Part shown: positions 35,190 to 44,693 of the stretch, one piece after another
Numbering within the stretch: the first letter of the stretch is position 1
Layout: every line of letters begins with the position of its first letter
Origin: Opitutaceae bacterium
GTDB lineage: Bacteria > Verrucomicrobiota > Verrucomicrobiia > Opitutales > Opitutaceae
DNA: 59,608 bases
Direction of reading: 5' to 3'
Assembly (NCBI GenBank): GCA_025360455.1
Contig: JANYCF010000125.1
Coordinates: 1 to 59,608 of the forward strand
Program-made: the position numbers and the translations under genes
The notes under the pieces: model-generated
The model's database searches: none
The model's input: only the letters and a program-made list of their open reading frames with translations
Told to the model about the DNA's origin: nothing

Positions 35190-35801
35190 TTACTTCTTCG
35201 GTGCGTGGCGCTTTTCCAGGACGGAAATCGCATCGGTGAGCGAGAGTTTTTTGACGCGCATCAGGACCATCAAGTGAAAGATCAGGTCGGCGGCTTCGCC
35301 GGAGAATTCGGGGTTCTTGGCGGAGAGGGCCGCGAGCGCGGTTTCAACACCTTCCTCGCCGACTTTCTGCGCGCAGCGGGTGACGCCTTCTTGGGCGAGG
35401 CGGACGGTGTAGCTGGATTTGTCGCCGCTCTTGATCCGGGCGGCGATCACTTGGTCGAGATGAGCCAGGAAGCCTACGCCGGTGGCGCCTTCATCGCCGA
35501 AACAACTGGTCGTGCCGCGGTGACAGGTGGGGCCGATGGGGTTGGCTTTAATCAGGAGGGTGTCGTTGTCGCAGTCGACTTCGAGACTGACGAGCTTGAG
35601 GAAATTGCCGGAGCTCTCGCCTTTGACCCAGAGACGTTGCTTGGTGCGGCTGAAGAAGGTGACCTTCGTGGACCTGAGCGTTTTCTTCAGCGCGGCGGCA
35701 TTCATGTAGCCGAGCATGAGCACTTGCAGCGTGGCGGCGTCCTGCACGATGGCGGGAACAAGTCCGTCGGTTTTCTGCCAATCGATTTTCGGGAGTTTCA
35801 T
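35190..35801 (-). CDS. hisIE: Bifunctional phosphoribosyl-AMP cyclohydrolase/phosphoribosyl-ATP pyrophosphatase
   Basis: A 203-residue fusion for the second and third steps of histidine synthesis. HisI part: LMLGYMNAAALKKTLRSTKV, metal ligands in EVDCDNDTLLIKANPIGPTC and CHRGTTSC. HisE part from about residue 110: RLAQEGVTRCAQKVGEEGVE then AADLIFHLMVLM. It is the last gene of the operon. The spacer to hisF holds a family G repeat. Confidence 0.95.
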   Translation of the reverse strand: MKLPKIDWQKTDGLVPAIVQDAATLQVLMLGYMNAAALKKTLRSTKVTFFSRTKQRLWVKGESSGNFLKLVSLEVDCDNDTLLIKANPIGPTCHRGTTSCFGDEGATGVGFLAHLDQVIAARIKSGDKSSYTVRLAQEGVTRCAQKVGEEGVETALAALSAKNPEFSGEAADLIFHLMVLMRVKKLSLTDAISVLEKRHAPKK

Positions 35802-35915: not shown

Positions 35916-36683
35916 TCAGGCCCTGACCTCAATGCCTTCCTGGGCGAGGTAAGTTTTTAATTTTGGAATGGGAATGGTGCCGCTGTGGAAGACGGAGGCA
36001 GCCAAGGCGGCGTCAACACCGGCGTCGCGGAACACATCGCGGAAATGTTCGGGTGCACCCGCACCGCCGGAAGCGACGAGCGGAATCGTGAGCACGGCGC
36101 GAACGAGCTTGAGTTGGGCGAGATCGTAGCCGGCTTTCACGCCGTCCTGGTTCATGCAGTTGAGTACGATTTCACCGGCGCCTAGTTTCTGCGCTTCCTT
36201 GGCCCAATCGACCGTGCGCCAGCGGGTGCCGCGGGTTTTGGTCGGATCACCGGTGTATTGCTTAACGAAGTAGTCGCCGTTTTCTTGGCGGCTGTCGATG
36301 CCCACGACCACGCATTGCGAGCCGAACTCGGCGGCGAGCTGGCCGAGGAGCGCGGGATTTTCAATGGCCGGGGAGTTGAGCGAAATCTTGTCGGCGCCGC
36401 TGTGGAGCAACCGCCGGGCTTCATCGAGTGAACGGATGCCACCGGCCACGCAGAATGGAATGTCGATCACGCGGGCGACGCGGGTCACCCAGTCGGTGGA
36501 CACGGTGCGGCCATCGCTGCTGGCAGTGATATCATAGAACACGAGTTCATCGGCCCCTTCGTCGCGATAACGCTGGGCGAGTTCGATGATGTCGCCCATG
36601 TCGACGTGATTGCGGAACTGGACGCCCTTGACGACACGGCCGTCGCGGACATCGAGGCAGGGAATGAGGCGGCGGGCTAGCAT
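35916..36683 (-). CDS. hisF: Imidazole glycerol phosphate synthase, cyclase subunit
   Basis: A 255-residue TIM barrel: [20 protein letters not shown] holds the first catalytic Asp, [18 protein letters not shown] the second (Asp 130 region), and [16 protein letters not shown] the phosphate site. It works with HisH, which supplies ammonia. HisA, its sister barrel, is the gene before it. Confidence 0.96.
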
Positions 36684-36813: not shown

Positions 36814-37542
36814 TCAGCACGACAAAGCCTCCTGCAGCGTGAATTTGTTTTCGTAGAGCGCGCGGCCGACGATGGCGCCGGTTGAGCCGGTGGTTTTCAG
36901 CACGCGCAGATCTTCCAGCGACGAGACGCCGCCGGAGGCCTGGATGTGCAGTGAGGGGAATTTTTTCACCAGCTGCGCATAGAGCGCGGAATTTGGACCG
37001 GTCAGCTTGCCGTCGCGGCTGATATCGGTGCAGAGAATGTGCACGAGTCCGGCGGAGAGAAACCCGGTGAGCATTTCATTGAGTGCGACACCGGTGCTTT
37101 CCTGCCAGCCGGCGGCAGCAATACGTGGCGTGCCGTCGGCATCGAGCCGCACATCGGGCGCGAGAATGATGGCTTCGGGGCCGAATTGTTTCAACCAGCC
37201 GCGGACCAGCTCGGGTTGTTTCACGGCGAGGCTGCCGACGATTACACGTTTCACCCCGGCGTTGAGCAGGGCGGAAATCTGGGATTCCTCGCGGATGCCG
37301 CCGCCGGTCTGGACGTGCAGGCCGCTTTCACGGGCGAGTCTTTCCACGAGCGGAGTCTGGCGCTTGGTCGGATCCTTCGCGCCGTCGAGATCCACGACAT
37401 GCAGCCAGGTCGCACCGGCAGCCTTGAAGCCTTGGGCAACGGCGACCGGATCGGTGCCGTAGGTTTTTTCCTGATCGAATTTGCCTTCGGTCAGGCGCAC
37501 GACGCGGCCGCCGCGAAGGTCGATGGCTGGATAAATGATCAT
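36814..37542 (-). CDS. hisA: Phosphoribosylformimino-AICAR-phosphate isomerase
   Basis: A 242-residue TIM barrel beginning MIIYPAIDLRGGRVVRLTEG (catalytic Asp 8) with LHVQTGGGIREESQISALLN and LCTDISRDGKLTGPNSALYA carrying the second Asp. The start at 37542 gives the family's usual N-terminus; the open frame continues upstream only through a palindromic repeat. Fourth step of the pathway. Confidence 0.95.
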   Translation of the reverse strand: MIIYPAIDLRGGRVVRLTEGKFDQEKTYGTDPVAVAQGFKAAGATWLHVVDLDGAKDPTKRQTPLVERLARESGLHVQTGGGIREESQISALLNAGVKRVIVGSLAVKQPELVRGWLKQFGPEAIILAPDVRLDADGTPRIAAAGWQESTGVALNEMLTGFLSAGLVHILCTDISRDGKLTGPNSALYAQLVKKFPSLHIQASGGVSSLEDLRVLKTTGSTGAIVGRALYENKFTLQEALSC

Positions 37543-37553
37543 GGGTTGGGAAA

Positions 37554-37624
37554 CTGTAGGAGGGGCTTTATGCCCCGATAAGCTGCGCGTAGACTCGGAT
37601 CGGGGCGTAAAGCCCCTCCTACAG
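37554..37624. repeat. Inverted repeat, family D (CTGTAGGAGGGGCTTTATGC)
   Basis: Arms CTGTAGGAGGGGCTTTATGC and GCGTAAAGCCCCTCCTACAG pair over more than 25 bases. It lies in the hisH-hisA spacer. Close copies are at 39456-39526 and 58582-58643. The sequence resembles REP elements known from pseudomonads. Confidence 0.85.
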
Positions 37625-37648
37625 TTGCGGAAGCGAGCGTGTAGGATT

Positions 37649-38242
37649 TCATACGGGCATCGCCAAAAAGTTTTTGAGCAGCTGGGCCCCCGCGGCACCG
37701 GAACGTTCGGGGTGAAATTGTACGCCGGAGAAGTTTCCGCGTTGCACCACGGCGGCGAATGCCGTGCCGTGTTCGCAGCTGGCGAGGGTGAACTCGTTCA
37801 CCGGACCGGCGAAACTGTGGACGAAATAGAAACGGGTGGTCGCATCGAAGCCGCGGAGCAGCGGGGTGTCGCGTTTGATACCCAAATTATTCCAACCCAT
37901 GTGGGGCACGGTGACGCCCGGCGATTCGGGCAGCAGGGCCACGCGACCGGGGATGAGTCCGAGCGAGGGCGTGTCGCCTTCGGCAGAGGATTCGAAGAGC
38001 AATTGCATGCCGAGGCAGATGCCGAGCACGGGCTGCGTGAGGCCGCGCACGCAATCGACCAAACCCCGCTCGCGCAGCCGGCGCATGCCTTCGGGGGCTG
38101 AACCGACGCCGGGCAAAATTACGCGCTTGGCTGCACGGATAACCGCGAGATCAGCCGTGAGTTTACTTTGTACGCCAAGCCGCTCGAGCGCGAAGCGCAC
38201 CGAGGCGATATTGGCGCCACCACTGTCGACAATTGCTAACAT
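37649..38242 (-). CDS. hisH: Imidazole glycerol phosphate synthase, glutaminase subunit
   Basis: A 197-residue class I amidotransferase. The nucleophile is in VLGICLGMQLLFESS, and the His-Glu pair in GVQFHPERSGAAG. It begins MLAIVDSGGANIASVRFALE, as HisH does. It forms the two-subunit synthase with HisF. Confidence 0.95.
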   Translation of the reverse strand: MLAIVDSGGANIASVRFALERLGVQSKLTADLAVIRAAKRVILPGVGSAPEGMRRLRERGLVDCVRGLTQPVLGICLGMQLLFESSAEGDTPSLGLIPGRVALLPESPGVTVPHMGWNNLGIKRDTPLLRGFDATTRFYFVHSFAGPVNEFTLASCEHGTAFAAVVQRGNFSGVQFHPERSGAAGAQLLKNFLAMPV

Positions 38243-38375: not shown

Positions 38376-39440
38376 TCACAGCACTCCTTTCGAGCTGGGG
38401 ATTTCTCCGCCGGCGGTGCGGGCTACCGCAGGACGGAGGGCGCGGCCGAAACCTTTGAAGAGGGCTTCGACCATGTGGTGCGTGTTGTCGCCGGTGACAC
38501 TCATGTTCAGGGTGAGGGCAAGGTTGTCGCTCACCGATTTGAAGAAATGAGAAACCATCTCGGTCGGCATCTCGCCGACGCGATCACGGGGGAATTTGGC
38601 GTCGAAGACCAGCCACGCGCGGCCACTCAGGTCGAGGGCGACCTGGGCGAGCGCTTCGTCCATGGGCATGACGAAACCGTAGCGGCCGATGCCGCGTTTG
38701 TCGCCGAGCGCCTGACGGAGAGCGGTGCCGAGCGCGAGGCCGGTATCCTCAATGGTGTGATGTTCGTCGATGTGCAGGTCGCCTTCGCAGGTGATCACGA
38801 GACTGATACCGGCGTTGCGGGCGATCTGCTCCAGCATGTGATCGAAAAATCCGAGACCGGTCGCAAATTTGAGGGGCGCGGTCGCGTCGAGGTCAACGGT
38901 GACAGTGATCGAAGTTTCCTTGGTTTTGCGCACGATGCTCGCGCGGCGGGGAGCCTCGACCAGCTGGCGCGCAATTTCCGTCCAACCGAAATTCTTGCGG
39001 TCGTAGCGGAACCCGCGGATGCCGAGATTTTGCGCCAGCTGCACATCGGTTTCGCGATCGCCAATGACGGCGGCTTGTTCGCGCGACCACGACGTGTCCT
39101 TGACGTAATCAGTCAGGAGCCCGGTCTTGGGTTTGCGGCAATCACAGCGATCCGCCGGTTTGTGCGGGCAAACGCGGATGGCCTCGAAGGTAATGCCTTG
39201 GGAACTCAGAATATCGAGCAGCAGTTTTTGCGGCGGTTCGAAATCGGCCTGGGGGAAACTCGCGGTGCCGAGGCCATCCTGATTGGTGACCATGACAAAG
39301 ACGAAGCCGGCGTCGCGTAACCGCAGCAGCGCGGGAACGCAGTCGGGTTCGAGCACGAATTTGTCGAGCCGGTCGATCTGTTGGTCGGGCGGTTCGGCGA
39401 TCAGAGTGCCGTCGCGGTCGATGAAGAGGATTTTTTTCAT
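38376..39440 (-). CDS. hisB: Bifunctional histidinol-phosphatase/imidazoleglycerol-phosphate dehydratase
   Basis: A 354-residue fusion. The N-terminal HAD phosphatase has MKKILFIDRDGTLIAEPPDQ, MVTNQDGLGT and the zinc loop CPHKPADRCDCRKPKTGLL. The C-terminal dehydratase has LGFFDHMLEQIARNAG, DLHIDEHHTIEDTGLALGTA and NTHHMVEALFKGFGRALR with the metal-binding His/Glu sets. It covers steps six and eight of the pathway. The start at 39440 is preferred; the upstream extension is repeat sequence. Confidence 0.95.
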   Translation of the reverse strand: MKKILFIDRDGTLIAEPPDQQIDRLDKFVLEPDCVPALLRLRDAGFVFVMVTNQDGLGTASFPQADFEPPQKLLLDILSSQGITFEAIRVCPHKPADRCDCRKPKTGLLTDYVKDTSWSREQAAVIGDRETDVQLAQNLGIRGFRYDRKNFGWTEIARQLVEAPRRASIVRKTKETSITVTVDLDATAPLKFATGLGFFDHMLEQIARNAGISLVITCEGDLHIDEHHTIEDTGLALGTALRQALGDKRGIGRYGFVMPMDEALAQVALDLSGRAWLVFDAKFPRDRVGEMPTEMVSHFFKSVSDNLALTLNMSVTGDNTHHMVEALFKGFGRALRPAVARTAGGEIPSSKGVL

Positions 39441-39455
39441 GGCTGGGATCGAAAT

Positions 39456-39526
39456 TGTAGGAGGGGCTTTATGCCCCGATAAAAATGACCGCATCGAGTG
39501 AATCGGGGCGTAAAGCCCCTCCTACA
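39456..39526. repeat. Inverted repeat, family D, copy 2
   Basis: TGTAGGAGGGGCTTTATGCC and GGCGTAAAGCCCCTCCTACA are the arms. It lies in the hisC-hisB spacer. Confidence 0.85.
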
Positions 39527-39553: not shown

Positions 39554-40618
39554 TCAGACACGGGACAAGATCTCCAGGGTGGCGTTGTTTTCATCGGCGG
39601 TGCCGACGGTGATCCGGACGGTGTTCGGGACATCCTTGCTGCGGTCGCGCCAGACGACGCCCTTGGCGCGGCCGGCGGCCATGACATAGGCGGAGTCGGC
39701 GACTTGGATGAGAATGTAATTGGTATCGGTCGGCCAGACGCGCTGCACCACGGGGAACAAAGGCAACGCGGCGAGCAGGCGCTGGCGTTCGCTGGTGAGC
39801 AGGCGGATGGATTCGCGGGCGGCGGCAATGCCTTCGGGGGAAAGTGCGGTCAGAGCGGCCTGAAGCACAGGAACCGGAATCGGGTAGGGTGCGATGACTT
39901 TTTGCAGCACGGCGATCACTGCCGGCGAAGCCAGCGTGGCGCCGACGCGCGCTCCGGCGAAACCGTAAGCTTTCGAGAGGGTGCGCAGAACGACGAGATT
40001 AGGATTCGCGGCGATCTCGGAGGCGAGAGAAGGCTGGCTGGCGAATTCGACGTAGGCTTCGTCCACGACGACAACGGCGCGAGTGGCGAGGGTTTTCACG
40101 ATGCGGAGCACGCTCGCGCGATCGAGCAGCTGGCCGGTGGGATTGTTCGGCGAGCAAAGAAAAACCAATTTCACTTCGGGGGTCACCGCAGCGAGCACGG
40201 CGTCGGTGTTGAGCGCGAAATTTTTAGCAAGGATCAGCGGCACCTTGATGACACCGGCGTTCTGAATGCCGGCGGCGACCGTGTACATGCCGTAGGTGGG
40301 CGGCGTGGTGAGAATGGCGTCCTTACCGGCGCTGCAGAACGTGCGCAGCAGCAGATCGATGCCTTCATCTGCGCCGCGAGTGACGAGCACGTGGGTGGGA
40401 GCGACGCCGTAGATGCCGGCGAGTTTTTCGATCAGGACAGGTGGCTGCGGATCCGGATAACGGTTGAACAGAGGCTGATGAGCCGAGGGAGTTTCCGGGT
40501 TTTCATTCGCATCCAACCAAATACGACCACCCTTGGATTCCTTGCGCGCGGAGCTGTAGGGCGCGAGCGCGAGGATCTCGGGGCGGACGAGGGCGAGCAC
40601 TTGTTCGATGGGGGTCAT
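39554..40618 (-). CDS. hisC: Histidinol-phosphate aminotransferase
   Basis: A 354-residue fold-type I PLP enzyme. The Schiff-base Lys is in VVLRTLSKAYGFAGARVG, with LFNRYPDPQPPVLIEKLAG, FLCSPNNPTGQLL and VVVDEAYVEF before it. The start overlaps the hisD stop (ATGA), the only directly coupled junction in this operon. Confidence 0.95.
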   Translation of the reverse strand: MTPIEQVLALVRPEILALAPYSSARKESKGGRIWLDANENPETPSAHQPLFNRYPDPQPPVLIEKLAGIYGVAPTHVLVTRGADEGIDLLLRTFCSAGKDAILTTPPTYGMYTVAAGIQNAGVIKVPLILAKNFALNTDAVLAAVTPEVKLVFLCSPNNPTGQLLDRASVLRIVKTLATRAVVVVDEAYVEFASQPSLASEIAANPNLVVLRTLSKAYGFAGARVGATLASPAVIAVLQKVIAPYPIPVPVLQAALTALSPEGIAAARESIRLLTSERQRLLAALPLFPVVQRVWPTDTNYILIQVADSAYVMAAGRAKGVVWRDRSKDVPNTVRITVGTADENNATLEILSRV

Positions 40619-42006
40619 GGCGAGGGTAGGGCGGGACCGCTGGGCCCGCCGGTTTGCGCGCGCGCGTCCTTTCTTGATCGCGGCGCGCCCAGCGGTCGCG
40701 CCCTACCTTCAGACATACAGTCCAAGCGGACGCGGACGGCGCGCTGGTGGGCGCAGAGGTTTTCGGCCAGTGCGAGGCGTTCGACCACGGGGCCGAGTTT
40801 TTTCAGGCCGCGCGGGCTGGCGGTTTGCACGGTCATCGTGCGCAGAAAATCAGTGAGGCCCAGACCGGAGCAGGAGCGCGCCCAGCCGTAGGTGGGTAGG
40901 ACGTGATTGGTGCCGCTGGCGTAGTCGCCGAGCGATTCGGGCGTCCAGGCGCCGAGAAACACGGAGCCGGAAGTCGTGATGCGCGGCAGCAACGCGCGCG
41001 GATCGGCGAGCTGGAGAATCAAGTGCTCGGGTGCGTAGCGGTTGGCGATCTCGACGGCTTCGTCGGACGAAGCGGCAAGAATCACGCGGCTGTTGGCCAG
41101 GGCACGCGTGGCGATGGCGCCGCGCGGGAGAGCCGCGAGTTGTTTCTCCACCTCGTTCTGCACGCGGGCCGCGAGTTTTTCGGAAAAAGTGACGAGCACC
41201 ACTTGCGAGTCCGGGCCGTGTTCGGCCTGCGAAAGGAGATCGGCGGCGATGAAGGCAGGTTCGGCAGCGTTGTCGGCTATAACCATCACCTCGGACGGAC
41301 CGGCGGGCAAATCGATAGCCGCGCCGGCGGCTTCGCGGGAGATCTGGAGCTTCGCTTCGGTGACGTAGGAATTGCCGGGGCCGAAAAGTTTATCGCACTT
41401 CGGAATGCTGGCGGTGCCGAAGGCCATGGCGGCGATGGCTTGGGCGCCACCGACTTTGAAAATGTCGGTGATGCCGCAAAGCTGGGCGGCGAAAATAATC
41501 CACGGACTGAGTTTGCCGTCTCGGCCGGCGGGAGTGCAGAGCACACGTACGGGATTGCCGGCAATCTGCGACGGTACGCCGAGCATGAGCGCAGTGGAGA
41601 ACAACGGTGCGCTGCCACCCGGGACGTAGAGACCGACGCGTTCGATGGGGCGGGAAACTTTTTCGCATACGATGCCCGGCATCGTCTCGACGCGGATGGG
41701 CGCGGGACGTTGGGCGAGATGAAAGCTGCGGAGATTGCGATAGGCGGTCTTGAGCGCGGATTTGTCGGCAGGGCTCAAGGCTTTGTCCGCGGCGGCAAAT
41801 TCGGCGGGACTCACCTTGAGCGAACGCAGATCGGCACCGTCAAACTTGGCGGTGTAGATGCGCAGCGCGTCGTCTCCTTCGATCCGGACAGTCGCAACGA
41901 TCTCCGCCACGGTGGCGGAGAGTTGCTCACGCGACGACTGCGCCGGGCGTTGGAGCGCGGCGAGGCGTTGGCGGGCGGAGAGGGATTTCCAAGTGAGGAG
42001 TTTCAT
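40615..42006 (-). CDS. hisD: Histidinol dehydrogenase with repeat-derived C-terminus
   Basis: A 463-residue enzyme. DLPAGPSEVMVIADNAAEPA, LLSQAEHGPDSQ and GTNHVLPTYGWARSCSGL with the zinc-binding His and Glu are present. The family usually ends soon after the LALAENLCAHQRAVRVRL region; here about 30 more residues (GRARPLGAPRSRKDARAQTG and on) are encoded by a family C palindrome at 40625-40707. The start at 42006 fits the family; the upstream frame is a family H repeat. Confidence 0.94.
   Translation of the reverse strand: MKLLTWKSLSARQRLAALQRPAQSSREQLSATVAEIVATVRIEGDDALRIYTAKFDGADLRSLKVSPAEFAAADKALSPADKSALKTAYRNLRSFHLAQRPAPIRVETMPGIVCEKVSRPIERVGLYVPGGSAPLFSTALMLGVPSQIAGNPVRVLCTPAGRDGKLSPWIIFAAQLCGITDIFKVGGAQAIAAMAFGTASIPKCDKLFGPGNSYVTEAKLQISREAAGAAIDLPAGPSEVMVIADNAAEPAFIAADLLSQAEHGPDSQVVLVTFSEKLAARVQNEVEKQLAALPRGAIATRALANSRVILAASSDEAVEIANRYAPEHLILQLADPRALLPRITTSGSVFLGAWTPESLGDYASGTNHVLPTYGWARSCSGLGLTDFLRTMTVQTASPRGLKKLGPVVERLALAENLCAHQRAVRVRLDCMSEGRARPLGAPRSRKDARAQTGGPSGPALPSP
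40625..40707. repeat. Inverted repeat, family C, inside the 3' end of hisD
   Basis: Arms GGTAGGGCGGGACCGCTGGG and CCCAGCGGTCGCGCCCTACC. It lies wholly within the hisD frame and leaves the ATGA overlap with hisC in place. Confidence 0.85.
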
Positions 42007-42013
42007 TGTGATT

Positions 42014-42092
42014 TTGTCATCGCGAGAACGGCATAGCCGTTCGAAGCGATCCAGATGGATTGCTTCGTCGCTGTGCTCCTCGCAATGACAAG
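42014..42092. repeat. Inverted repeat, family H (TTGTCATCGCGAGAACGGC)
   Basis: Arms TTGTCATCGCGAG and CTCGCAATGACAAG enclose further CGAAGCGAT/TTGCTTCG pairing. It lies in the hisG-hisD spacer. The TGTCATTGCGAG arm word is a widespread intergenic repeat in bacteria. Confidence 0.75.
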
Positions 42093-42103
42093 AAACCAAT
42101 TCA

Positions 42104-43015
42104 TCACAGCATCATCTTTTCGATGGGGAGGACGAGGATGCTGCTGGCGCCGGCTTTTTTGAGCGACTCCATGGTTTCCCAGAAGACGGCTTCCTGGCAG
42201 ACGGCATGAAGGGCGACTTTGGTGTCGTCGCCGGCGAGGGGAAGGATCGTGGGATTCTCCGAGCCGGGCAGAAGTTTTCTGATTTCGGCTAGCGCGGCCT
42301 TCGGCGCATGCAGCATGATGTATTTGGCGTCGGCGGCTTTTTGCACGCCGTCGATGCGGCTGAGCATGATGTCGAGCGCGTGCGATTTCTCCGCCGTGAG
42401 GGAGCGGTCGCTGCGGATGAGCGCGGCCTTGCTCTTGAAAATGGTTTCGACGGCGCGGAGTTTGTTGGCTTCGAGGGTCGAGCCGCTGGAGACGAGATCG
42501 CAGATGGCGTCGGCAAGGCCGAGGCGCGGGGCGATTTCGACGGAGCCGCTGAGGGTGACGACATCGGCCTTGATATTTTGCTCGGCGAGGAAACGGCCGG
42601 TGAGCTGCGGGTACGATGTGGCGATGCGCAGGCCTTCGAGATCCTTGAGGCTGCTGAAAGGACGCTCCTCAGGAATAGCAATCGCGAGGCGGCAGCCGCC
42701 GAAGTCGAGCACGCGTTCGACGGAATACGCGTGACGGGAACCGGCGTTGCGGCGCTCGAGACTGGATTCTTCGAGGACATTCTGGCCGACGATGCCGAGA
42801 TCGCACACACCGTCCATGACGAGTTGGGGAATGTCGTCATCGCGGACGAAGAGGAGATCGACCGGGAAATTATCGGCGTGCAGCAGCAGCTTTTCTTTGG
42901 GGGCCTTGATCTTGATGCCGCAGCTTTTGAGCAGATCGAGGGAATCGGTGGAGAGGCGTCCGCTTTTCTGGATGGCGAGGCGGAGGCGGTCGGTGGGGAG
43001 GGTGACGGGAGGCAT
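42104..43015 (-). CDS. hisG: ATP phosphoribosyltransferase, long form
   Basis: A 303-residue HisG of the long, self-regulated type. Visible are RLRLAIQKSGRLSTDSLDLL, DLGIVGQNVLEE, and the PRPP-binding DLVSSGSTLEANKLRAVETI; about 80 C-terminal residues (LLPGSENPTILPLAGDDTKV) form the regulatory domain that binds histidine. It makes the committed step. No hisZ is needed for this form. It is the first structural gene behind the attenuator. Confidence 0.95.
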   Translation of the reverse strand: MPPVTLPTDRLRLAIQKSGRLSTDSLDLLKSCGIKIKAPKEKLLLHADNFPVDLLFVRDDDIPQLVMDGVCDLGIVGQNVLEESSLERRNAGSRHAYSVERVLDFGGCRLAIAIPEERPFSSLKDLEGLRIATSYPQLTGRFLAEQNIKADVVTLSGSVEIAPRLGLADAICDLVSSGSTLEANKLRAVETIFKSKAALIRSDRSLTAEKSHALDIMLSRIDGVQKAADAKYIMLHAPKAALAEIRKLLPGSENPTILPLAGDDTKVALHAVCQEAVFWETMESLKKAGASSILVLPIEKMML

Positions 43016-43174
43016 GATGAAATTGGGTCCAGGGTTTAGGGTCTGGGATTTTGGGTCGGGAAAGAGATGAGGAGATGTGATGCTAGGAGAGAAAAGAGGG
43101 AAGTTGGGAGAACGGATTTTAAGAAAATCAAGATAACTGCTGGGCGGGGAAGGCCGGGGTCTTGGCGGGTGGCC

Positions 43175-43210
43175 AAAGAAAAACCCCGGTGGGACATGCC
43201 AGCCGGGGTT
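43175..43210 (-). terminator. his attenuator terminator
   Basis: On the minus strand AACCCCGG (43210-43203) pairs with CCGGGGTT (43189-43182) around a 13-base loop, followed by TTTTCTTT. This is an intrinsic terminator between the leader peptide and hisG. A smaller stem CCTTCCCTCGCAGGGGAGG (43267-43249) directly behind the leader peptide stop suits the pause or antiterminator hairpin. Confidence 0.85.
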
Positions 43211-43267
43211 AAGAAATTCGAGTCATCACCCAGGAAAGGCACATCAGGCCTCCCCTGCGAGGGAAGG

Positions 43268-43303
43268 CTAGGCTTCGTGGTGATGATGGTGATTAAGGAT
43301 CAT
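43268..43303 (-). CDS. hisL: his operon leader peptide
   Basis: Eleven codons on the minus strand read MILNHHHHHEA and a TAG stop. Five His codons in a row (CAC CAT CAT CAC CAC) sit just before a small hairpin and an intrinsic terminator, upstream of hisG and in its direction. This is the layout of a ribosome-mediated histidine attenuator: stalling at His codons when charged tRNA-His is scarce would prevent the terminator from forming. No Shine-Dalgarno sequence precedes the ATG, in line with most genes here. Confidence 0.88.
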   Translation of the reverse strand: MILNHHHHHEA

Positions 43304-43406
43304 GAGAGATCGAGGCCGCTAAAAAGCCTGAGGGAAGGCGTCGTGGCAAGTATTTTTCTTAAACCGGTTGCGGCGGTGGGATGATTTTCGGTTGTCGGGT
43401 GGGTGT

Positions 43407-43456
43407 AGGTGGCGCGCTGGTCGCGCCACGTTGCGTGGCAAGCACGCAACCTACCC
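43407..43456. repeat. Palindromic repeat, family J-like
   Basis: GTAGGTGGCGCGCTGGTCGC and CAAGCACGCAACCTAC form an imperfect double hairpin. It lies between the his leader and the divergent membrane-protein gene. Confidence 0.5.
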
Positions 43457-43517
43457 TTGCGGCGGAGAATTACCCGAGTCAGCTTAAATGTTTCCGCTTC
43501 AACACCCCTGAAAGCTC

Positions 43518-44693
43518 ATGTCCCAGAGTAAAACGGTTTCTGTTTCGGCCCAATCGCGGGAGACGTTTCAGCCTTCATGGCGGGCGCAGACGGCGGTGGT
43601 CGTGGCAATCGCGGCGACTTACGGTTACTTTTTGATCTTTGCGCAATTTGGATTTCTCAAGGCGGTGCAGGCCGTCGTGGGAGGGGAGGGCGCGCTGCTG
43701 CGTCCGTTGATGGCCGTGATGGGCGGGTGTGGGATCGCGGGCAGTATCGCGGTGGTGCGGATTTATGCCGCAGGGCGCGGGCGGTGGTTGATGTTACTCG
43801 GCTTTGGACTCGGTGGTGCGGCGGCTGGGTTGAGTCTGCTCGCGGGTTCATCGGCAGGGTTGATGATTTGTGCGGCTCTGACGGGGGTGGGTACGGGTAT
43901 CATCACGGTGACGCTGGCCGCCATGGTGCGGCGCGAAGTTGGTGGCGAAAAACTTGGCTGGTGTATCGGCGCGGGCACTGGGTTGGCGTACGGGCTGTGC
44001 AATCTGCCGTTCGTGTTTAACGCCGGAGCGGCGGGGCAGGCCGTGATGGGCATCGTGGCCTGTGGGGCGGGAGCGCTCGCGGTGTTGGGTTTCAGGCAAC
44101 GCGCACCGCAGCACGAAGTCGGCGGTTTTGATTATCGGCCGGGTGGCGTTGGCGGGTGGGTGGTGATTTTATTCGCTCTCGTGTGGTTGGACTCGGCGGC
44201 GTTTTACGTGATTCAACATACGCCGGCGTTAAAAGGCGGGATGTGGGGTGGCGACGCGCAGCTATACTTGAATGCGATCGTGCATGCGGCTGCGGCTTTG
44301 TTGGCGGGGTTGATGCTCGACCGGCGATGGGTGGGCCGGACGGTGTTGTTCGCGGCGGGCTGGTTGATCATGGCGTGCATACTGATTCGGTCGGGCGAGG
44401 GCGCGTTGGCCACGGGGGCGTTTTGTTATACGACGGGGGTTTCATTCTACTCGACGGTGTTGGTTTTTTATGTGGCGCGCAGTGGAAGGGTGGGGTTGGC
44501 CGCGCTGGTGTATTCGGTCGCGGGGTGGATTGGTTCGGCGTTGGGCATTGGTATGGCAGAGAATCTGGGCGCGGTGCCCGCTTGGTTTTTGATCGGGGCG
44601 AGTGCGCTGGTACTCGGGGGGATTTCCGGACGATGTTGGCTCCAGTCGCGCGATCCCCGGGTTGAATTGGGTGGAGGCGAGGGGGCCCAATAA
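43518..44693 (+). CDS. MFS-like integral membrane protein
   Basis: A 391-residue protein with about twelve hydrophobic segments (for example AVVVAIAATYGYFLIFAQFG, WVVILFALVWLDSAAFYVIQ and ALVYSVAGWIGSALGIGMAE), the size and layout of a major facilitator transporter. Charged loops are short and I see no substrate-specific motif. It is followed within 66 and 31 bases by an LtaS-type transferase and a barrel protein on the same strand, so all three may work on the envelope. Confidence 0.7.
   Translation: MSQSKTVSVSAQSRETFQPSWRAQTAVVVAIAATYGYFLIFAQFGFLKAVQAVVGGEGALLRPLMAVMGGCGIAGSIAVVRIYAAGRGRWLMLLGFGLGGAAAGLSLLAGSSAGLMICAALTGVGTGIITVTLAAMVRREVGGEKLGWCIGAGTGLAYGLCNLPFVFNAGAAGQAVMGIVACGAGALAVLGFRQRAPQHEVGGFDYRPGGVGGWVVILFALVWLDSAAFYVIQHTPALKGGMWGGDAQLYLNAIVHAAAALLAGLMLDRRWVGRTVLFAAGWLIMACILIRSGEGALATGAFCYTTGVSFYSTVLVFYVARSGRVGLAALVYSVAGWIGSALGIGMAENLGAVPAWFLIGASALVLGGISGRCWLQSRDPRVELGGGEGAQ

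Follow-up and report, generated by a model that had tools for sequence, protein, structure and literature searches.

On the minus strand of the 59,608-nucleotide stretch of Opitutaceae contig JANYCF010000125.1 analysed here (the window), the histidine operon is preceded by a conserved element that is, very probably, a ribosome-mediated transcription attenuator setting the expression of hisGDC(NB)HAF(IE) by the supply of charged His-tRNA. The histidine attenuator known from E. coli would thereby now be found in Verrucomicrobiota, where it most likely turns the his genes on when histidine is short. Classic leader-peptide attenuation is described, in the available parts of two surveys, for Proteobacteria, Actinobacteria and some Firmicutes (PMC2965389, PMC9413887), and the string 'verrucomicrob' has no occurrence in the accessible portions of PMC9413887, PMC2965389, PMC4833913, PMC8305728 and PMC10138114. 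The initial annotation of the region, made from the letters alone, knew of no described verrucomicrobial case, and none was found in the open-licence PMC literature, where one paper (PMC11611912) came up with every term of a search.

Leader peptide and layout of the element

As the initial annotation had it, the minus strand encodes an 11-codon leader with five consecutive His codons, which reads MILNHHHHHEA* (ATG ATC CTT AAT CAC CAT CAT CAC CAC GAA GCC TAG, 43303-43268), with the ATG at 43303-43301, the five CAY codons at 43291-43277 and the TAG at 43270-43268. The small hairpin and the intrinsic terminator reported to follow it are likewise present, the former at 43267-43249 (CCTTCCC-TCGCA-GGGGAGG) and the latter at 43210-43175, with a stem formed by AACCCCGG...CCGGGGTT and then a U-tract. 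Of this terminator, a simple terminator scan flagged just a 5-pair inner stem on the minus strand. The terminator end (43175) lies the reported 160 nt from the hisG start (43015). The parts of the element, with the basis for each, are:

43321..43349, minus strand: tentative promoter, TTGCCA, 17 nt, CTTTTT (TTGC conservation)
43268..43303, minus strand: leader peptide gene, MILNHHHHHEA then TAG (sequence; kept in 24 distinct Opitutaceae sequences)
43279..43286, minus strand: segment A, inside the His codons, complementary to D2 (sequence; pairing counts)
43261..43267, minus strand: segment B, CCTTCCC, immediately following the leader stop codon (sequence; pairing counts)
43249..43255, minus strand: segment C, GGGGAGG, partner of B or D (folding and pairing counts)
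43233..43245, minus strand: segment D, GATGTGCCTTTCC, partner of C or E (folding and pairing counts)
43223..43230, minus strand: segment D2, GGTGATGA, complementary to the His codons (sequence; pairing counts)
43193..43200, minus strand: segment E, GGCATGTC, in the terminator hairpin and antiterminator partner of D (folding and pairing counts)
43175..43210, minus strand: intrinsic terminator and U-tract, E:F (sequence, folding, pairing counts)

In the 4.85-Mb assembly, with both strands counted, five CAY codons in succession turn up at 12 overlapping positions, which make up 8 sites; the reversed control pattern turns up once. With 8 such sites in 4.85 Mb, one within the 300 nt upstream of hisG is not to be expected by chance (expectation ∼0.0003, with the short frame and the terminator not yet required).

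Conservation and distribution

A HisG search of 57 genomes, the window's own and relatives, gave a match in 47. HisG sequences 74-82% identical to the window's were found in 10 genomes of the same genus and, outside it, in a single genome (G021, from a different genus), and none of this type in 2 further same-genus genomes; the remaining matches are 27-34% identical to it. From the first sample of relatives we fetched 30 hisG loci, 12 with an E. coli-type HisG and 18 of the 35 with the other type. A His leader of 10-11 codons with 3-5 His, a hairpin and a terminator precede hisG in all 12 E. coli-type loci, and none of the 18 others has a short frame containing three consecutive His.

A covariance model built from these 12 leaders, R1, returned 21 matches in 200 genomes of the family, 19 at 76-136 bits and 2 at 27-30 bits, and the 19 strongly matching genomes are exactly those with a HisG at E<=1e-80; nine of the 19 had supplied the model and 10 are independent, all from one genus (g48). 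What the initial annotation had proposed to look for in close relatives, a shared His run and terminator, is thus there, in 12/12 E. coli-type loci by inspection and in 19/19 such family genomes by model match, and this conservation settles that the observation is real. Eight named loci, from Opitutaceae or Opitutia MAGs, also all match R1; the named relatives that carry the element are Opitutaceae (Opitutus, Lacunisphaera and Candidatus Didemnitutus MAGs), in agreement with the annotation's impression that the genome looks verrucomicrobial. Across 387 genomes of the phylum R1 gave 15 matches, of which 9 are the Opitutaceae elements; a wider spread was considered and rejected, as the other 6 are weak and on inspection proved to be terminators without a His run. 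A second family of the class (f23, genus g64) has six genomes (L156 and five further loci) whose HisG is 42-51% identical to the window's (E<=1e-60), and R1 has no match in them.

For the mechanism we aligned 28 leaders, representing 24 distinct sequences, with 9-11 codons and 3-6 His each. Start and stop codons are present in 24/24, and the stop codon directly abuts segment B in 22, lying 2-3 nt earlier in the other 2. In the His codon columns, third positions show 3-10 minority letters, second positions 0-2 and first positions 0, a pattern that points to selection on the leader as a reading frame.

Alternative structures and covariation

The conserved segments can pair in two ways. Across the 24 sequences, 98.2% of the cells are paired in the B:C helix and 96.7% in D:E, with a core of GGCAT with GTGCC, and the competing C:D and E:F helices reach 100% and 96.9%, figures taken from an alignment that had itself been fitted to these two helices. 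The pairing of the His codons with D2 (A:D2) holds in 88.9% of cells, its end pair failing in 8/24. At one D:E pair (67-124), 12 sequences have U-A and 8 have C-G, a compensatory change between genera that may go back to a single event between two genera. The covariation score of D:E is 0.155, a value reached by 0/500 shuffles (0.119), with slid controls at 0.007-0.105; B:C and D:E together have 2 pairs in which both partners changed, a number that is not beyond shuffles (79/500).

When histidine is sufficient, the ribosome would pass the His codons, halt at UAG and cover segment B, upon which C would pair with D, the E:F terminator would form and transcription would end before hisG. When His-tRNA is scarce, the ribosome would stall on the His codons, allowing B:C to pair, so that D would be free for E, the terminator would be blocked and the operon transcribed. 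Antiterminator (B:C and D:E) and terminator (C:D and E:F) thus appear to be mutually exclusive, with the choice set by ribosome position. For a ribosome placed on the first His codon before the 3' arm of the terminator is made, folding predicts B:C in 23/24 and D:E in 22/24 sequences; for a ribosome at the stop codon of the complete RNA, it predicts C:D in 22/24 and E:F in 21/24.

Some of the predicted folds tell against so simple a scheme. When a ribosome sits on the first His codon of the complete RNA, the minimum-energy fold still has the terminator in 21/24, and antitermination therefore has to be kinetic; the complete RNA of the window is itself predicted to retain B:C and D:E in this state and to lose them once the ribosome is at the last His codon. 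Conversely, with the ribosome at the stop codon and the 3' arm unmade, D:E is predicted in 14/24, the window among them, and therefore C:D must form first. In ribosome-free RNA, D:E is predicted in 20/24 before the 3' arm is made and the terminator in 22/24 after, an ambiguity that yields no clear prediction of super-attenuation in the untranslated leader. Folding order must, on the model, decide the outcome, as it does in attenuators generally.

Translation initiation and a tentative promoter

The initial annotation had concluded, from the missing Shine-Dalgarno (SD) sequence, that stalling must work with leader-independent initiation. A special mode of this kind finds no support, since the missing SD is not peculiar to the leader: 19 of 22 surveyed open reading frames of the window, hand-picked from the ORF lists with starts unverified, also lack a strong one. 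A duplex with the anti-SD of -4 kcal/mol or better is formed by 5/24 leaders vs 3/22 of these frames, and the window's leader reaches -1.7 kcal/mol; the probe sequence does not come from the host's own 16S, whose anti-SD end had 0 matches in the assembly.

A sigma-70 consensus scan found no promoter for the leader. A TTGC motif lies 40-52 nt upstream of the leader start in 23/24 sequences, and taking it as part of the tentative promoter listed above, with an assumed spacer of 17 nt, transcription would start ∼4 to 16 nt before the ATG, ∼10 in the window.

Alternative explanations

The most serious rival to attenuation by a translating ribosome is a terminator that works without the leader peptide, either as a constitutive partial terminator or as a switch operated by another ligand or protein, and dependence on DnaA has been proposed for a switch at the his operon of E. 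coli (PMC10989985, in the part available). The ribosome-free RNA can adopt either structure and the initiation signals of the leader are weak, which would suit such a switch; against it stand the retention of the His codons in 24 distinct sequences, with change mainly at third positions, and the fixed place of the stop codon beside segment B, and no other Rfam family reaches threshold, the best match below it being His_leader. We therefore consider it improbable. Still less probable is that the leader senses the speed of translation at the start codon, or is translationally coupled to hisG, rather than acting through transcription termination: the very short predicted 5'UTR would fit this, but the U-tract terminator is conserved and the leader stop lies more than 250 nt from hisG in the window.

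A repeat of His codons arisen by chance, next to hairpins that are just the ordinary terminator of an upstream transcript, has a negligible probability. In its favour, 7 other CAY-run sites exist in the genome, with no leader-like context at any of the 5 inspected (the C311 and C352 sites being left out); yet the same element stands before hisG in 19/19 family genomes with an E. coli-type hisG, a conservation that refutes this explanation, and the upstream gene (43518-44693) is oriented opposite to the leader and is thus no source of a transcript for its hairpins.

Relation to known attenuators

An Rfam scan of 42900-43600 matched RF00514 (His_leader) over the whole model at E 0.021 (701 nt searched), but the 27.9 bits obtained fall short of the gathering score of 49, which places the element outside RF00514; a T-box model is not among the 9 Rfam matches up to E 10 in the same interval. 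In one and the same search, RF00514 reached its threshold in 0/8 named Opitutaceae loci vs 8/12 proteobacterial loci. Judged from its sequence, the element would work like a his attenuator, yet stays below the score that RF00514 itself sets for its members. Of the features of the mechanistic class, a leader rich in the operon's own amino acid (3-6 His in 24/24) and a terminator before the first structural gene are there. The enterobacterial layout recognised in the initial annotation (His-rich leader, hairpin and terminator before hisG) also stands, and with the gammaproteobacterial RF00514 the element further shares the stop codon beside the first switching segment, the alternative hairpins and a terminator ahead of hisG in an operon of the same eight genes; unlike it, the element has a leader of 9-11 codons, mostly without a strong SD, and scores below the gathering score.

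Attenuators with His-rich leaders are also proposed in Firmicutes, where three to five consecutive His codons likewise precede a predicted antiterminator and terminator, but in another phylum (PMC9413887, PMC2965389; available parts). In what is accessible of these papers, RF00514 has no match in Firmicutes (PMC9413887) and no similarity was seen between Firmicutes and proteobacterial leaders (PMC2965389). That the Rfam model fails to pick up this conserved verrucomicrobial case suggests an under-count of such switches outside well-studied phyla.

The his operon and its origin

The leader is followed by a complete his operon in the order hisGDC(NB)HAF(IE), which is that of enterobacteria (PMC8305728, PMC10138114; available parts):

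42104..43015, minus strand: hisG (TIGR00070 above cut-off)
40615..42099, minus strand: hisD, true start uncertain (TIGR00069 above cut-off)
39554..40618, minus strand: hisC (TIGR01141 above cut-off)
38376..39494, minus strand: hisNB, bifunctional hisB (NF003937, 545 bits, cut-off 443)
37649..38242, minus strand: hisH (TIGR01855 above cut-off)
36814..37698, minus strand: hisA, true start uncertain (TIGR00007 above cut-off)
35916..36683, minus strand: hisF (TIGR00735 above cut-off)
35190..35801, minus strand: hisIE, bifunctional (NF002747, 267 bits, cut-off 187)

Between the Opitutaceae set and 72 proteobacterial loci (among the best 80 of 550), HisG identity is 56-61%, and HisG of most relatives is at ∼30%. 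In a tree made by a quick method (SH-aLRT 95 and 96, with long-branch warnings) from 100 of 121 proteins, 12/18 distant ones and identical rows being left out, the 24 Opitutaceae rows form one clade beside, not inside, 69 proteobacterial rows. By these comparisons, the E. coli-type HisG of Opitutaceae groups with proteobacterial HisG and not with most of its own family's, which suggests that horizontal transfer is likely; as the loci compared are the best 80 of 550, further phyla may be absent from the set, and the tree singles out neither a donor nor a direction. Transfer of the his operon from Gammaproteobacteria to other groups has been proposed before (PMC8305728, in the available part).

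R1, although built from Opitutaceae alone, matches 66/72 non-Opitutaceae hisG loci at E<=1 (among the best 80 of 550), 23 of them above 30 bits. It also scores plain terminators at 28-34 bits and two Ile-rich leaders at 27-30 bits, so that its scores support, but do not prove, common descent with the proteobacterial attenuator. Tentatively, and with slightly less than even confidence, we picture a proteobacterial-type his operon that entered Opitutaceae together with its attenuator, whose transcript later became nearly leaderless and SD-less and whose helices changed compensatorily, with such leaders serving as a general amino-acid control in the family, in which leaders occur for his, for ilv and for Ile/cimA. 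The element also offers a natural test of whether an attenuator can move between phyla together with its operon, and of whether attenuation can work with SD-less leaders placed very close to the 5' end.

Other amino-acid leaders in the family

The multivalent ilv attenuators of E. coli belong to the same mechanism class and sense branched-chain amino acids. The window's genome has a leader of the class common to these and to the his element, MTTSGTQFPVRFLATVIIVVVVLLTPKQGRVY, with a GGCCGCCC/GGGCGGCC terminator, before ilvD (L187 9200-9040, minus strand; G000:C377 ∼15199-15040). An ilv-type leader with terminator is present at 9/11 ilvD loci of the same genus (including L188-L193 and L196-L198), one of the two misses (L194) lying at a contig end, and at 0/7 loci outside the genus. 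In other Opitutaceae genera, an Ile-rich leader (e.g., MRFTSIIAAIIIIARHPGQEDAA) and a GC-rich terminator precede a cimA-like gene (L144 and L145, near 1500-1630), and an Ile-rich leader lies upstream in 5/30 cimA loci (L158, L162, L165, L170 and L172); both ilvD and cimA were named by eye, with no family search.

Two further observations concern this genus. Its ilvD sequences are ∼80% identical to one another (L188-L198) and 46-48% identical to those of other relatives (L199-L205), the same contrast as for HisG, so that this operon may be a second one to have been acquired. Upstream of the his leader, at 43376-43470 of the window, lies a GC-rich, repeat-like stretch, GTAGGTTGCGTGCTTGCCACGCAACGTGGCGCG, and a stretch much like it is found upstream of the ilv leader (L187, ∼9360-9310).
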